Source: Clostridia bacterium
GTDB taxonomy: Bacteria > Bacillota > Clostridia > Lachnospirales > Lachnospiraceae
Length of the DNA stretch: 32,564 bases
Direction: 5' to 3'
Assembly (NCBI GenBank): GCA_028722515.1
Contig: JAQYGS010000158.1
Span: 1-32,564 of the forward strand
The notes under the pieces were generated by a model. The model saw nothing but the letters and a program-made list of their open reading frames with translations. It ran no database searches and had not been told where the DNA came from. A program made the position numbers and the translations under genes. This document shows positions 13,748 to 18,772 of this stretch, in pieces (the stretch's first letter is position 1; each line of letters begins with the position of its first letter).

Positions 13748-16225
13748 TCACCGCTTCACAGCAGATGATTCTGTATATTTACTTAAAACTACTCCATCAG
13801 GTTCCTTTACATATGCTCTTACCGCATAGTAGTATAATACACCTTTTTTAGCCGTTTTGTCCAGATATGTTTCATAAGTTCCTTTAGAAAAATTTTTCAG
13901 CATTTTATATGATCCGTTTTTGGTTTTTCTGTATACACGATATCCATCACAGTTCTTCTGAGGTTTCCAGGAAATACGGATTCCAGTTGACCCGGGCTTG
14001 AGGGAAGATATCTTTTGTCTGGCTGGAGCTGCTTTTATTACATCTCCTGTTACATATTTACTGCTATATGTTTTATCTCCTGCTTTCTGATATGCCCGTA
14101 CCGTATAACAATAAGCTGCATTAGCAGTCACTTTGCTGTCTTTATAACTTAACACGGAAGATTTCACATCAGCCAGTCTGGTCCACTTTCCTCCCTTTCC
14201 AGGTTTTCTCCATACTGTGTACCACTGTGCTCCTGATACTTTTTTCCAGGTAATAGTATTATATCCACTTGAAGAAACACTTACCTTAAATTTGGGAGTT
14301 GCCAACTGTCTGGGAGGATTTACCGTAACGGTTACTTTTTTAGTCAAGCCTGTAGAATCTGTACTTCGGCAGGTAATAACTGCCTTGCCTGGATTTCTGG
14401 CAGTAATTTTCCCGTTCTCATCCACAGATGCCACACTCTTATCACTGCTCTGATAAGAAAGCCCTATATACCTCACGGAAGATGGAGTGACCTGAGCATT
14501 CATACAGGAAGTTTCACCAATATTTAAAGTAGTTTTATCAGGATTAGCAGAAAGCTTTGGGGTCACCGGACTGCTCTGAGTTTTTGTGTGAGCTTTAATT
14601 CTGGCAGTCCAGGATTTTGTATAGGCATCTGTCCATGTCTCAGATGTTTTTCCTTTGAAGAAAGTCTGTCCTTTCTCAATTCCAGGTGAAGTATTAAACC
14701 AGCCTGAGGAATACCCGGCCTCTATTCCCAGGCGGATGCTGTTGTTTCCTTTATTTTTGATCACAACGGAAAATTTTGTATTCTGAAGCAGAGTGACTTC
14801 GGGAAGAGCTATGGTACGTATTCCAGCCATAGACTGGTAATACTGAATGGGACTGCTGTATACAGGACTTCCGCTTGAAGGATCTGACGGATCTTTTACA
14901 TTGGCATATACCTGTATCTCATAAAGAGCAGGATCGTTCAATGATGTTATATTGATCTCGCCAAGTGTTTCCGCCTTTCCCTTTCCTGCCTTGGCATCAA
15001 ATATGGCAGCAACTGACTGATCTGCAGCAAGGGGTATTACAGTAGTAGCCGAAGAGCCATCATAAAAATAATTGTTTTTATACTTTACTGAATTTACGGC
15101 ATCTACGGCAACCAGGTTTCTAAGCTCAGTGCTTTCATAGGATATATAAAAGAAACCGTTGTCTCCCCATTCGCTTCCCCAGCTGTTTTTTGCAATCCAT
15201 GCTCCGTCAGAAGTTACTTTGGATCTGTCCAGGAAGTTATTTCGGGAATAATTGTCATCCCATCCTACTATCGTAACGATATGATTGTCTCCACCGGAAG
15301 CTCCCGACGGGTAACAATATGCTGCCGTATCCGGATTATAATAGAAGCCCTTGTTCATTGGAAGCATTACAGATACTGCATGATTTCCCATCAGCATTTC
15401 TTTTATTTTTTCCTGTGAATAATTAAAGAAATAGGCATTTTTTAAATAAGCCTCAGTATGATATGCCTTTTCTGCCGGAATAGAATCTGAAGGCAAAGGC
15501 ACATCCTCTTCTGTAGTCATTCCTGACCATGTAGACAGAAAAATAGATGCCAGCATATTGTTTCCACCGGCATTCCGGTAATTTCCGGTCACACTGTTTA
15601 CATCATCAGGAGTATTATTCAGGGGATCATTCTGCCTGTGTGAAAAAAAGTAGCTTAAATGTTCCTCGGAAAGGTCATATATCCCTTTATTCTGTGCCAT
15701 AAGGGAGCTCTCCATAATCGCAGCCATTCCAAAAGCCCAGCAGTTTCCATATGGATTCTGATCTTTTGCAGGAGTAACATAATTCAGTTCCCGCATATCA
15801 AATGTCTCCGGATAAGACGATCTTCCCGCACTAAATGCTGCCACACATGTATCATCCGAATAGCTCTCAATCTCAGGTCCGGGGTCAAGTGGGGCCAGTG
15901 TGTCAAAGGGGGCCATCTGTTCCTCTTTTTCCTCCTGTGTCAGGGGACGGCCTTTAATATATCGAATTCCCTCGGTATGGGAATCATTATTCTGCTCCTC
16001 ATCCTGAAAATTATCCTGTACATTTTCCTGTACATTTTCCTGTATATTTTCCTGTATATTTTCCTGTATATTTCCCGAAGAAAATTCCTGCTGTATTTCA
16101 TTCTGATCGTTAAAAATTCCATCATTAAATTCTTCCTCTGCCATAACCGGCATACCAGTCAGAACCAAAGCTGAAACAAGAAATGCAGAAACAGTCTGCC
16201 TGATGCGATTTCTTTTTTTCTTCAC
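13748..16225 (-). CDS. Secreted papain-like (C1A) cysteine protease with Ig-like and FN3 domains
   Basis: The protein has 825 residues from GTG 16225. The track's ATG 16258 is rejected because AAAGGAGG lies inside that longer frame, 9 nt before the GTG. The GTG start gives a clean signal peptide (RIRQTVSAFLVSALVLTGMPVMA). A short ENIQ repeat tract (about 52-72) and a propeptide-like region follow. The catalytic domain (about 136-370) shows Q157/C162 in QNPYGNCWAFGMA, H315 in GGDNHIVTIVGW and N347 in AKNSWGSEWGDNGFF. All four active-site residues are present. A lectin-like beta domain, a Big_2 domain (LSANPDKTTLNIGE...VTVTVNPP) and two FN3-like domains with GYRVYRKTKNGSYK and YYYAVRAYVK come next. 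No anchor is visible, so it is secreted or held by its domains. It is co-transcribed with the SH3 protein. Confidence 0.9.
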   Translation of the reverse strand: MKKKRNRIRQTVSAFLVSALVLTGMPVMAEEEFNDGIFNDQNEIQQEFSSGNIQENIQENIQENVQENVQDNFQDEEQNNDSHTEGIRYIKGRPLTQEEKEEQMAPFDTLAPLDPGPEIESYSDDTCVAAFSAGRSSYPETFDMRELNYVTPAKDQNPYGNCWAFGMAAIMESSLMAQNKGIYDLSEEHLSYFFSHRQNDPLNNTPDDVNSVTGNYRNAGGNNMLASIFLSTWSGMTTEEDVPLPSDSIPAEKAYHTEAYLKNAYFFNYSQEKIKEMLMGNHAVSVMLPMNKGFYYNPDTAAYCYPSGASGGDNHIVTIVGWDDNYSRNNFLDRSKVTSDGAWIAKNSWGSEWGDNGFFYISYESTELRNLVAVDAVNSVKYKNNYFYDGSSATTVIPLAADQSVAAIFDAKAGKGKAETLGEINITSLNDPALYEIQVYANVKDPSDPSSGSPVYSSPIQYYQSMAGIRTIALPEVTLLQNTKFSVVIKNKGNNSIRLGIEAGYSSGWFNTSPGIEKGQTFFKGKTSETWTDAYTKSWTARIKAHTKTQSSPVTPKLSANPDKTTLNIGETSCMNAQVTPSSVRYIGLSYQSSDKSVASVDENGKITARNPGKAVITCRSTDSTGLTKKVTVTVNPPRQLATPKFKVSVSSSGYNTITWKKVSGAQWYTVWRKPGKGGKWTRLADVKSSVLSYKDSKVTANAAYCYTVRAYQKAGDKTYSSKYVTGDVIKAAPARQKISSLKPGSTGIRISWKPQKNCDGYRVYRKTKNGSYKMLKNFSKGTYETYLDKTAKKGVLYYYAVRAYVKEPDGVVLSKYTESSAVKR
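16009..16074 (-). repeat. 12-bp tandem repeat encoding E-N-(I/V)-Q units
   Basis: About five copies of a 12-bp unit (ATTTTCCTGTAT/C on plus) encode repeated ENIQ/ENVQ just after the protease signal peptide. The copies are near identical at DNA level, which suggests recent slippage. Changes in copy number would keep the frame. Confidence 0.85.
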
Positions 16226-16523
16226 GTCTGGATTCCTCCTTTTGTCAGATACTGCCATTATATCTTTTTATTCTGTAAAAGTCCATCGAAAATTCTTTCT
16301 TATATGTAATAAATCCACAGAACAACATAGTATGCTATCCTGTGGATCCATTTTGTCCTTTAATTCTTCTGTTGAGCCCCAAAAGCCCCCCGGAAGCTAC
16401 GCTAAATGCCTGTGAGCACTTTCTTTCGCATAAAGAAAATAAGAAAGACTGTTCCTGCGGGCATAATCTGACACCATATATGTAATCTAATATAAGGTTT
16501 ATGGTCTTTTGTCCGCCTTTCTA
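16226..16523 (-). promoter_or_regulatory. Long 5' leader of the protease operon with several hairpins
   Basis: The predicted transcript start (near 16516) is about 290 nt before the protease start. On the minus strand the leader holds a TTTCTTT-ATGCG-AAAGAAA hairpin near 16420-16440. It then has a G-rich segment (TTCCGGGGGGCTTTTGGGGC, about 16376-16395) and an ATCCACAG...CTGTGGAT stem (16313-16347). No intrinsic terminator with a T-run is seen, so any control would act on translation or stability. I could not match it to a known riboswitch class. No gene is supported in this stretch. Confidence 0.4.
16235..16240 (-). promoter_or_regulatory. RBS deciding the GTG start of the C1A protease
   Basis: AGGAGG (within AAAGGAGG) is 9 nt upstream of GTG 16225. 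It falls inside the longer ORF listed in the track, which has no ribosome site of its own. Confidence 0.8.
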
Positions 16524-16552
16524 ATTCTAGCAAATACAATAACAGATTACAA
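16524..16552 (-). promoter_or_regulatory. Protease operon promoter (TTGTAA-17-TAGAAT)
   Basis: On the minus strand TTGTAA (16547-16552) and TAGAAT (16524-16529) are 17 bp apart. This is the best promoter match upstream of the protease. Confidence 0.5.
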
Positions 16553-16609
16553 TCACAATCGTTCTCTTTTATTTTTTAAAATACGACATGCCAAATCTCT
16601 TCGGATTTA

Positions 16610-16897
16610 CTACATGCCTTTTATTTTTTTCATTAATTCTGCAAGTTCTTGATATTTGGAAGTTATATAACCATAATTCTGCCTCTTATGGGGAATCTGA
16701 CAGTTAGTGCAATCCTTAAGCCCGGAGTCTGTATATCTGAAATTTCCTCCACACTTATCACCAAGAGCATATAATGGACAATAACAGAAAAGGCAATTAA
16801 AATTATCTGGATCTGCACCCTTATGGCATGGAAAATATTCGCATTTTTTATGACTGAAATAAGAATACTCCTTATCTTCCCAGCTCTGTTTATGCAT
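16610..16897 (-). CDS. Small cysteine-rich protein (PF04071-like) under B12 riboswitch control
   Basis: This 95-residue soluble protein has eight cysteines (19, 24, 35, 38, 40, 49, 63, 66) plus histidines, in the order KKCEYFPCHKG, FNCLFCYCPLYALG, KCGGNF and KDCTNCQIPHK. The pattern fits the 'cysteine-rich small domain' family, which likely binds a metal or Fe-S cluster. That assignment rests on motif recall. There is no signal peptide. The ATG follows AAAAGGAGAAGGAAAT. Upstream on the same strand lie a cobalamin riboswitch, its terminator and a second long hairpin with a T-run. The gene should therefore be made when cobalamin is scarce. A role in cobalamin or corrinoid metabolism is inferred only from that control. 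It is the sole gene of its transcription unit. Confidence 0.85.
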   Translation of the reverse strand: MHKQSWEDKEYSYFSHKKCEYFPCHKGADPDNFNCLFCYCPLYALGDKCGGNFRYTDSGLKDCTNCQIPHKRQNYGYITSKYQELAELMKKIKGM

Positions 16898-16925
16898 ATT
16901 TCCTTCTCCTTTTCATATAATCCTT

Positions 16926-17015
16926 AAAAAAAGAGGGAGCGATGCTACTTCGGGGTAGAAGTCTGATTCGTTCAAATATGCGCGGAGGGAACGAATATTT
17001 CCGAAGTAGTATCGC
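16926..17015 (-). terminator. Second long hairpin with T-run between B12 riboswitch and Cys-rich gene
   Basis: GCGATGCTACTTCGG (16939-16953) pairs with CCGAAGTAGTATCGC (17001-17015), 14 of 15 positions plus one G-T pair on plus. Inside, ATTCGTTC (16966-16973) pairs with GAACGAAT (16989-16996). On minus the stem is followed by TCCCTC and seven T (16926-16932). It could be a second terminator, a processing or stability structure, or a small palindromic element. Confidence 0.65.
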
Positions 17016-17061
17016 CTGCCATTTAATCATGTATAATTCATAAAGAACAGGCGCATTCCAT

Positions 17062-17092
17062 AAAAAAATGTCTGCTTTCGTAAAAGCAGACA
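17062..17092 (-). terminator. Terminator of the cobalamin riboswitch (expression platform)
   Basis: A perfect 10-bp stem (TGTCTGCTTT/AAAGCAGACA) with a 4-nt loop is followed on minus by seven T. It lies about 60-90 nt after the riboswitch aptamer, where a ligand-controlled terminator is expected. Confidence 0.85.
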
Positions 17093-17149
17093 ACGCTTCG
17101 TGGCTGCGGAATCCACAAAGTTGGTTGTTACACTTTACACGGAAGTTTA

Positions 17150-17325
17150 ACCTCGCCATACCAAGCAGGTTTCCTGGCTCCAGGCTCATCGCTCCTCTCT
17201 CCTTCTCATGCTATGGCACAATGGAATCTTCTGAGATTCGCTCCTCTGTTACAGTGACCGGATCGCTCAGGTTTCTCACCTGATTCCCTCTTTCTGTACC
17301 GTATCTTATACGGTATCAGCACTTA
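17150..17325 (-). ncRNA. Cobalamin (B12) riboswitch aptamer
   Basis: On the minus strand the conserved core reads in order: GGGAATCAGGTGAGAAACCTGAG, CCGGTCACTGTAACAGAGG, GTGCCATAGCATGAGAAGGAG and GGAGCCAGGAAACCTGCTTGG. These correspond to the known B12-box elements (GGGAA...GGTG...AA.CC, CACTGTAA, GCCA...G, AGCCAGGA.ACCTGC). A short extra hairpin (ATACCGTATAAGATACGGTA) precedes the core. The B12-box identity is strong; the exact ends are approximate. A terminator follows downstream, so cobalamin binding should switch the Cys-rich gene off. Confidence 0.92.
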
Positions 17326-17355
17326 ATATGTTCTATATGGAATTATACTGATGCT

Positions 17356-17384
17356 ATAATAACATCTCACATTATTAATGTCAA
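17356..17384 (-). promoter_or_regulatory. Promoter of the B12 riboswitch transcript (TTGACA-17-TATTAT)
   Basis: TTGACA (17379-17384) and TATTAT (17356-17361) are 17 bp apart on the minus strand. Transcription should begin about 25-30 nt before the aptamer. Confidence 0.75.
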
Positions 17385-17440: not shown

Positions 17441-18772
17441 TTATACAAGTCTTCTTACAGAAGTAATAGTTCTGTAGGCTGCATTATTGCTTACCTTAAT
17501 TCCATCTACAGAATTGGATGCATGAACGATCTGTCCATTTCCCATATAAATGGCAACATGACTGCCGTAACAGATCAGATCTCCAGGCTGAGCATCAGAA
17601 TAAGAAACTTCTGTTCCTGCATTCTGCTGTTCATAAGATGTTCTTGGAAGATCTACTCCAAAATTCTTATATACACTCTGCACAAATCCTGAGCAGTCTG
17701 CACCATTGGTAAGGCTTGTTCCTCCCCATACATAAGGATTTCCAACAAACTGTGTTGCATAATCAACTACGGAAGAACCGGAAGATGAACTTCCTGCACT
17801 GCTTTCCTGTCCACTGTAATATTCTCCCTCAGGTACTGTATTATCGGAATCGATCACATTACCGTATTCATCGTACGTCACATCATCCTCATAACTCTCA
17901 TCGGACTGAGTATCATAATATGTATCGTCTCCATCCTCTGATTCAGTATCCTGTTCATATTCTTCTGTATCTGCCTCCTCCTGAGCAGCTGCTGCCCGTG
18001 CAGCCTCTTCCTCAGCCTGGCGTCTTGCTTCCTCTTCAGCTGCAATCCGCTCAGCCTCAAGTCTGTTGATCTCTGCAGTCTGCTCTGCTAAAAGATTAGC
18101 ATATTCTTCTGCCATCTGCTGTGCGTATGCCAGTTCATTATCAAAATCTGCAGATGCAGCTTTCTTCTCATCTATCTTACACTGAAGAACATATGACTGA
18201 TCCTCGTAGGATTTCTTCATATCTTCCAGATCAGCCTTTTCGGATTCATACCGCTGTTTAATCGCTTTAACCTGTTTAGCAGTATTCTCGTATTTTTCAA
18301 GGCTTTTTCTGTCAAGCTTGTAAGTTTCCTGTGTGTATTCCACTTTTGTAAGAAGATCTGCAAGATTGTCTGCATTCATCATCATATTCAGCCATGCATC
18401 TTCTCCGCCTTTTTCATAAAGGAACTGAATATGTTTCTTAACTGTATTATACTGAGCCTCACAGGCATTCTGAGCTGCAGCAAGATTCTTCTTGGTTTTG
18501 ATGATCTCCAGTTCTTTATTATCTATATCACCTTTCAGAGTATCAATTGTAACCATAGTATTAATAAGATCTGAATCAAGCTGTGCAATCTCACTCTGAA
18601 GCTGTGCTTTTGCACTTGCCAGTTCATCCATACGGGAATAAACCGAATCAAGCTGCTGACTGGTCCAAGCCTGTTCTTCCCTCAGTTCATCTTCCCTGGA
18701 TGCGCTTACAGTGGCAGCCTGAGTCATACTCATCATTATTGCTAAAGTCAGACATACAATTTTTTTCTTCAT
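17441..18772 (-). CDS. Secreted coiled-coil NlpC/P60 peptidoglycan endopeptidase
   Basis: It cleaves within peptidoglycan stem peptides outside the cell, for division or wall turnover. The protein has 443 residues. The signal peptide MKKKIVCLTLAIMMSMTQAATVSA precedes a long coiled coil (about 27-250) of PcsB/RipA-like type, ending in EAERIAAEEEARRQAEEEAA. A strongly acidic, Tyr-rich linker (about 265-325) comes next. The NlpC/P60 domain (about 335-443) has catalytic Cys360 (ADCSGF), His405 (GSHVAIYMG) and His417 (IVHAS). In PcsB-like enzymes the coiled coil keeps the domain inactive until FtsEX triggers it; ftsEX is not in the window, so that remains family knowledge. It is transcribed alone, with a terminator behind it. 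Confidence 0.93.
   Translation of the reverse strand: MKKKIVCLTLAIMMSMTQAATVSASREDELREEQAWTSQQLDSVYSRMDELASAKAQLQSEIAQLDSDLINTMVTIDTLKGDIDNKELEIIKTKKNLAAAQNACEAQYNTVKKHIQFLYEKGGEDAWLNMMMNADNLADLLTKVEYTQETYKLDRKSLEKYENTAKQVKAIKQRYESEKADLEDMKKSYEDQSYVLQCKIDEKKAASADFDNELAYAQQMAEEYANLLAEQTAEINRLEAERIAAEEEARRQAEEEAARAAAAQEEADTEEYEQDTESEDGDDTYYDTQSDESYEDDVTYDEYGNVIDSDNTVPEGEYYSGQESSAGSSSSGSSVVDYATQFVGNPYVWGGTSLTNGADCSGFVQSVYKNFGVDLPRTSYEQQNAGTEVSYSDAQPGDLICYGSHVAIYMGNGQIVHASNSVDGIKVSNNAAYRTITSVRRLV

Follow-up and report, generated by a model that had tools for sequence, protein, structure and literature searches.

A cobalamin riboswitch and a second conserved RNA element precede the gene of a PF04071 cysteine-rich protein in Blautia and other Lachnospiraceae

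The window, i.e., the whole stretch of 32,564 nucleotides of Lachnospiraceae DNA that we analysed, encodes on its minus strand a 95-residue protein with eight cysteines (16897-16610), as proposed in a first-pass annotation of this DNA. The promoter, B12 aptamer and terminator recognised in that annotation were also recovered. The predicted promoter (TTGACA-17-TATTAT, 17356-17384, minus strand) is sigma-70-like with an extended -10 box, and promoters scored between 10 and 12 out of 12 in all 35 homologous leaders scored. The putative 5' end of the transcript, GUAUAAUUCCAUA (17336-17348, minus strand), was placed from the -10 box, which ends 7 nt upstream, rather than by mapping; in 35/35 leaders scored, 6-7 nt separate the end of the -10 box from one and the same leader motif. 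In a covariance-model scan, the aptamer (17147-17341, minus strand) matched the full-length RF00174 model (positions 1-189) with 87.1 bits, against a gathering score of 31.5 (E 2e-20). It is followed by terminator 1, TGTCTGCTTTTACGAAAGCAGACA plus T7 (17062-17092, minus strand, with a 10-bp stem at 17092-17069), which corresponds to the riboswitch expression platform, and 28 of 30 leaders had an intrinsic terminator at this position. The region contained two terminator-like sites vs. 0.8 expected in shuffles. A TATAAT in the leader was considered as the -10 box of a second promoter and rejected as weaker (mean score 8.1 vs. 10.6 of 12 for the upstream promoter) and devoid of a -35 box, though not in every leader with the same certainty. 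The leader scans gave no match to the Rfam T-box family.

This protein had been presented as the single gene under riboswitch control. Such an arrangement is plausible but stays unproven in the source genome, where a gene for a peptidase-like protein (13748-16258) comes next, also on the minus strand, and starts ~350 nt downstream. No canonical terminator was found in the stretch scanned downstream of the gene (16400-16610), and the following gene lies on the opposite strand in three homologous loci (L034, L042, and L048). The product of 13748-16258 (minus strand) looks like a papain-like secreted protein, while an NlpC/P60-like gene (17441-18772) is located upstream of the riboswitch, with related upstream genes in the Blautia loci L034 and L184.

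The first-pass annotation had reduced the leader to the aptamer and its terminator and overlooked a second conserved RNA (17061-16931), so that the leader comprises more than these two parts. Read from the sequence, a predicted promoter, the aptamer, terminator 1, a second folded RNA and a PF04071 gene succeed one another in this order. The riboswitch and the protein family are both of known kinds.

The 95-residue protein (16610-16897, minus strand) had been described as having no known role. It does belong to a known family, since it matched Pfam PF04071 (zf-like) over residues 11-92 with 106.1 bits, for a cut-off of 27 (E 9e-31). It resembles this family by its full-length match and by its cysteine and histidine pattern. 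To our knowledge, no function has been assigned to PF04071, the "Cysteine-rich small domain", which we take to be the same as COG2158. None of the NCBIfam models matched the protein. In an alignment of 56 homologues (A1), the eight cysteines (19, 24, 35, 38, 40, 49, 63, and 66) and two histidines (25 and 70) were invariant, a conservation that suggests the binding of a metal or cluster. The AlphaFold2 model was confident (pLDDT 88); no solved relative was detected by sequence and the predicted fold had no match in the PDB, so no chemistry could be read from the structure. Searches of open-access papers returned nothing on PF04071, COG2158 or MmCobD, and the name "CblZ" occurs in the open literature only as an alternative to CobC. 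The source genome has one copy of zf-like, and the best matches, with 86-88% identity, came from Blautia and unnamed relatives. A divergent PF04071 subfamily (40-49 bits) was also seen in L181 and in matches from G291, G395, and G470 (family f65), in genomes with no detected cobalamin riboswitch.

Among the 80 nearest homologues from named genomes, 35 were preceded, within 1 kb and in the same orientation, by a cobalamin riboswitch, contigs being identified by matching coordinates and the B12 box being read directly in 30 leaders. These 35 were nearly all from Blautia, and nearly all Blautia copies of zf-like follow a cobalamin riboswitch. Elsewhere, PF04071 was fused to CobT, to CbiC-CobT, to a CobC-type histidine phosphatase and to a CbiL-type TP-methylase, or resided in operons with cobU-cobS, cbiA, cobD, cbiC, cbiK-cbiL, and cbiB-cobT. 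In a tree of 128 sampled copies, 41 were linked to a riboswitch, 19 to cob genes and 68 to neither. Along the well-supported branches of this tree, which was built on 92 columns and has weak deeper forks, the riboswitch label required at least six changes and the cob label at least seven, indicating repeated gains or losses of the B12 link. The tie to corrinoids suggested for this protein is thus supported by the 35 upstream riboswitches and by fusions and operons with cob/cbi genes on many branches; the homologue search did find a link to B12, recurrent but not universal in view of the 68 unlinked copies and of 11 carriers lacking CbiD (see below).

We found zf-like in 39 of 150 Lachnospiraceae. 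CbiD was encoded by 28 of these 39 carriers vs. 59 of the 111 other genomes, a modest enrichment, and its absence from the remaining 11 carriers indicates that zf-like also occurs outside de novo producers. These counts are more in keeping with a role in late assembly or salvage than with one in ring synthesis, without proving it. The source genome encodes CbiD, a Btu-type ABC system and CbiK. Its other two cobalamin riboswitches precede, respectively, the Btu-type ABC system followed by CbiD (L134, G000:C130) and a secreted-looking CbiK (L135, G000:C3).

The C-terminal cysteine-rich domain of Methanosarcina mazei CobD (MM2060, a threonine kinase/threonine-phosphate decarboxylase), which presumably belongs to the zf-like family, is reported to hold iron. 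In terms of domain arrangement, rather than of the MM2060 sequence itself, zf-like is a C-terminal domain in M. mazei CobD whereas it is a stand-alone protein under a riboswitch in Blautia. Proteins of M. acetivorans and M. jannaschii, used as controls, matched PF04071. One paper (PMC6461909) cites MM2060 as a kinase/decarboxylase of the cobamide pathway. In Firmicutes and, as far as family membership tells, in methanogens, the zf-like protein recurs alongside cobamide enzymes, and the clean B12 control predicted for Blautia would provide a system with a single gene for studying it.

The protein could instead have a general function in metal storage, metal delivery as a chaperone, or redox chemistry, for instance as a cobalt or zinc buffer, its regulation by B12 being incidental. 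Half of the zf-like copies are located in unrelated neighbourhoods and the ten invariant residues are ligands of a metal type, as such a function would predict; we nevertheless consider it rather unlikely, given that fusions and operons uniting it with cobamide enzymes recur in separate lineages. We most likely deal with an accessory protein that binds Zn or Fe-S and serves in the assembly or salvage of cobamides, predicted to act as a partner or domain of CobT, the CobC-type phosphatase, CobD, CobS/CobU, CbiC, and CbiL, that is, in late and middle steps of the pathway.

Several neighbours and fusions of zf-like deserve mention for themselves. In several lineages, the gene next to zf-like encodes a MATE efflux transporter (L066:6297-7664, L077:6298-7665, L193 from G136, and L128:4582-6063); it is sometimes located behind the cobalamin riboswitch and possibly serves corrinoid export. 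In L016 and L128, a CobQ-zf-CobS arrangement was wrongly suspected, the neighbour being a MATE transporter, and the neighbour in L026 and L123 had no Pfam support as an ECF S-component. The zf-like domain forms the C-terminus of a Gfo/Idh/MocA dehydrogenase in L122 (5603-7246, minus strand), with no visible B12 context, and a CbiK-CbiL fusion (cobalt chelatase and C20-methyltransferase) lies downstream of zf-like in L127 (6161-7690, minus strand).

The second RNA element (16931-17061, minus strand) spans ~130 nt between terminator 1 and the zf-like gene and was strongly conserved in every Blautia riboswitch leader that we read. It scored 135 bits (E 4e-31) with our covariance model, R1, whose training set includes the window. 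The consensus of 33 aligned copies consists of three helices, P1 (CGCCUG/CAGGCG), P2, and P3 with a near-invariant CCCUCCGC loop, and a variable hairpin is inserted in the P1 loop in many species. In the window, P1 (17013-17053, minus strand) pairs CGCCTG with CAGGCG around the loop GAATTATAC (17039-17031); P2 (16939-17015, minus strand) pairs GCGATACTACTTCGG with CCGAAGTAGCATCGC and encloses P3, formed by ATTCGTTC and GAACGAAT and closed by the near-invariant loop CCTCCGC (16988-16982, minus strand). P1 and P2 share a GGCG segment, which is both the 3' side of P1 and the 5' side of the extension of P2, and the two pairings of this strand swap were possible in 33/33 sequences. Across the 33 homologues, in a plain MAFFT alignment, 97% of the cells were paired and 9 of 27 pairs had changed on both sides. 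None of 500 shuffles gave a covariation as high, and slid controls were paired at 26-45%. In particular, the three strands covary together in L006, L066, and L077, where CGCC/GGCG/CGC becomes CACC/GGTG/CACC, i.e., a G-C to A-U compensation in P1. In L222, P2 has been rebuilt with an unrelated sequence but, as judged by eye, the strand swap is kept.

Rfam 15 gave no meaningful match to the element of the window at E<=10, only two chance matches to miRNAs, and no match to those of L006, L187, and L222 at E<=1. By a loose rule, a second canonical terminator was present in 17 of 30 leaders; the window has in its place a U-run located 6 nt beyond P2, which, because of this gap, is weak as an intrinsic terminator.

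We also tried to explain the element as something other than a structured RNA of this leader. A coding function (ATGGAAT... within a 99-residue ORF of the window) was rejected because the reading frame of L035 is interrupted by a stop after two codons and the hairpin insertions make the length variable. A mobile repeat was rejected because the source genome has no second copy and the element occurs once per Blautia genome except in G892; there, the copy that we read (L203) precedes zf-like and the coordinates of the other resemble those of the L049 zf-like locus. A viral match to part of the motif (L194) was discarded, the rest of the element being missing.

These features suggest that the element might be an undescribed class of riboswitch arranged in tandem with the cobalamin riboswitch and providing two-input control. 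Its compact, covarying fold with invariant unpaired nucleotides, the strand common to P1 and P2, the presence of its own terminator at many loci and the lack of an Rfam counterpart are all in line with this interpretation. Tandem AdoCbl arrangements are moreover known, including an AdoCbl/T-box Val leader in Blautia itself (PMC9481103). We consider a new riboswitch quite possible, if somewhat short of an even prospect. It is weakened by L222, in which P2 and P3 have been rebuilt without the CCCTCCGC loop, by L187, in which both helices are altered, and by the distribution of the element.

This distribution is indeed narrow. In covariance-model searches, R1 matched 30 of 41 Blautia genomes (18 of the 20 good ones) and only 5 of 397 genomes of the family, which speaks against a riboswitch class of its own. 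Beyond Blautia, we detected the element in three other lineages, plus one decayed remnant. Wherever the upstream sequence was read, the element was directly behind a cobalamin riboswitch, and no copy was found away from one, again unexpected for an independent riboswitch. Over 1.09 Mb of collected loci, R1 gave no strong match outside its training set, with two weak antisense matches.

The zf-like gene followed the element in nearly all element loci checked. Three Blautia element loci lacked it, two of them ending at a contig edge, and in L054 about 5.7 kb separate the riboswitch and the element from zf-like, a stretch that includes a secreted protein similar in look to that downstream of zf-like in the window. 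A decayed element (G821, L188) has a MATE-like gene downstream and lacks zf-like. The tight association with one gene raises the prospect that a protein binds the element, zf-like itself for example, in an autogenous control. We regard this as improbable, since most zf-like genes have no element and the decayed copy of L188 has no zf-like.

The loop of P1 exhibits a further feature. Its sequence GAAUUAUAC (17039-17031) is the reverse complement of GUAUAAUUC. Since the distance of the latter from the -10 box is 6-7 nt in all leaders scored, it would correspond to the nine nucleotides with which the RNA begins. Loop and 5' end could form at least 8 of 9 pairs in 35/35 leaders. In L066 and L077 both partners have changed, ACAUAAUUC or ACAUAGUUC facing GAAUUAUGU. 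A 9-nt match in the window alone was only moderately improbable (46 of 2000 shuffles), and the weight of the 5' pairing is thus carried by its conservation and by the compensatory changes. This motif was absent from L001, the other cobalamin riboswitch that we checked in the source genome.

The complementarity of the loop to the exact 5' end that we infer, the conserved spacing from the -10 box to the motif, its absence from L001 and the constant position directly behind a cobalamin riboswitch would all be explained if the element were a long expression platform of that riboswitch, or a clasp for its 5' end, with no second ligand. As a clasp, the pairing of loop and 5' end would shield the latter from 5'-to-3' decay (RNase J/RppH) or steer late folding. 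A device of this kind would hardly require ~130 nt, near-invariant loop nucleotides (TTCCCTCCGC, ATTAAA) or the separate second terminators found in about half of the leaders, and we retain it as a possibility on the doubtful side.

Taken together, we favour, as rather probable, a gene repressed by B12 through a two-stage leader, in which the second element would add a further level of control and the product would be an accessory metal-binding protein of the cobamide pathway. When cobalamin is plentiful, the aptamer would favour terminator 1 and the gene would be off; when it is scarce, the polymerase would read on into the second element. The middle strand GGCG would then have a choice of partners, either the 5' strand of P1 or the 3' strand of P2. 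The P1 loop, for its part, could bind the nine nucleotides at the 5' end of the transcript. The element, acting as a second switch (an orphan riboswitch or an attenuator) or as a 5'-end clasp, would set the completion, translation or stability of the read-through RNA, and zf-like would be made when B12 is short.

There is a fair chance that the second element is a new class of RNA. More specifically, we tentatively suggest that an undescribed riboswitch class or a device capturing the 5' terminus works in tandem with the cobalamin riboswitch for the two-input control of a metalloprotein of the cobamide pathway, a proposal that we hold to be credible without yet being the more probable outcome. 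Compared to RF00174, the Blautia leader has the same aptamer, covering the full model, and a terminator as platform, to which it adds the second element and the motif complementary to the 5' end. Tandem riboswitches are known for SAM-I/AdoCbl and for the AdoCbl/T-box Val of Blautia (PMC9481103), in which, as in the present leader, a second structured RNA with a regulatory role stands behind a cobalamin aptamer. Unlike in these tandems, the second RNA described here matches no known class, precedes zf-like and may pair with the 5' end of its own transcript. We found no description of this element, or of a cobalamin leader whose 5' terminus may be captured downstream, in the open literature, to which our search was confined.

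Compact, covarying and present in abundant gut bacteria, this RNA could be an orphan riboswitch, and its context (low B12 and one target gene) narrows the list of candidate ligands. If true, the pairing with the 5' end would give the RNA an uncommon means of detecting that it had been transcribed past its own first terminator. Two other candidate pairings were noticed in the sequence: the CCUCC of the P3 loop (16988-16982, minus strand, in the window) is complementary to Shine-Dalgarno sequences, and UUCCCU is complementary to the conserved AGGGAA of cobalamin aptamers.
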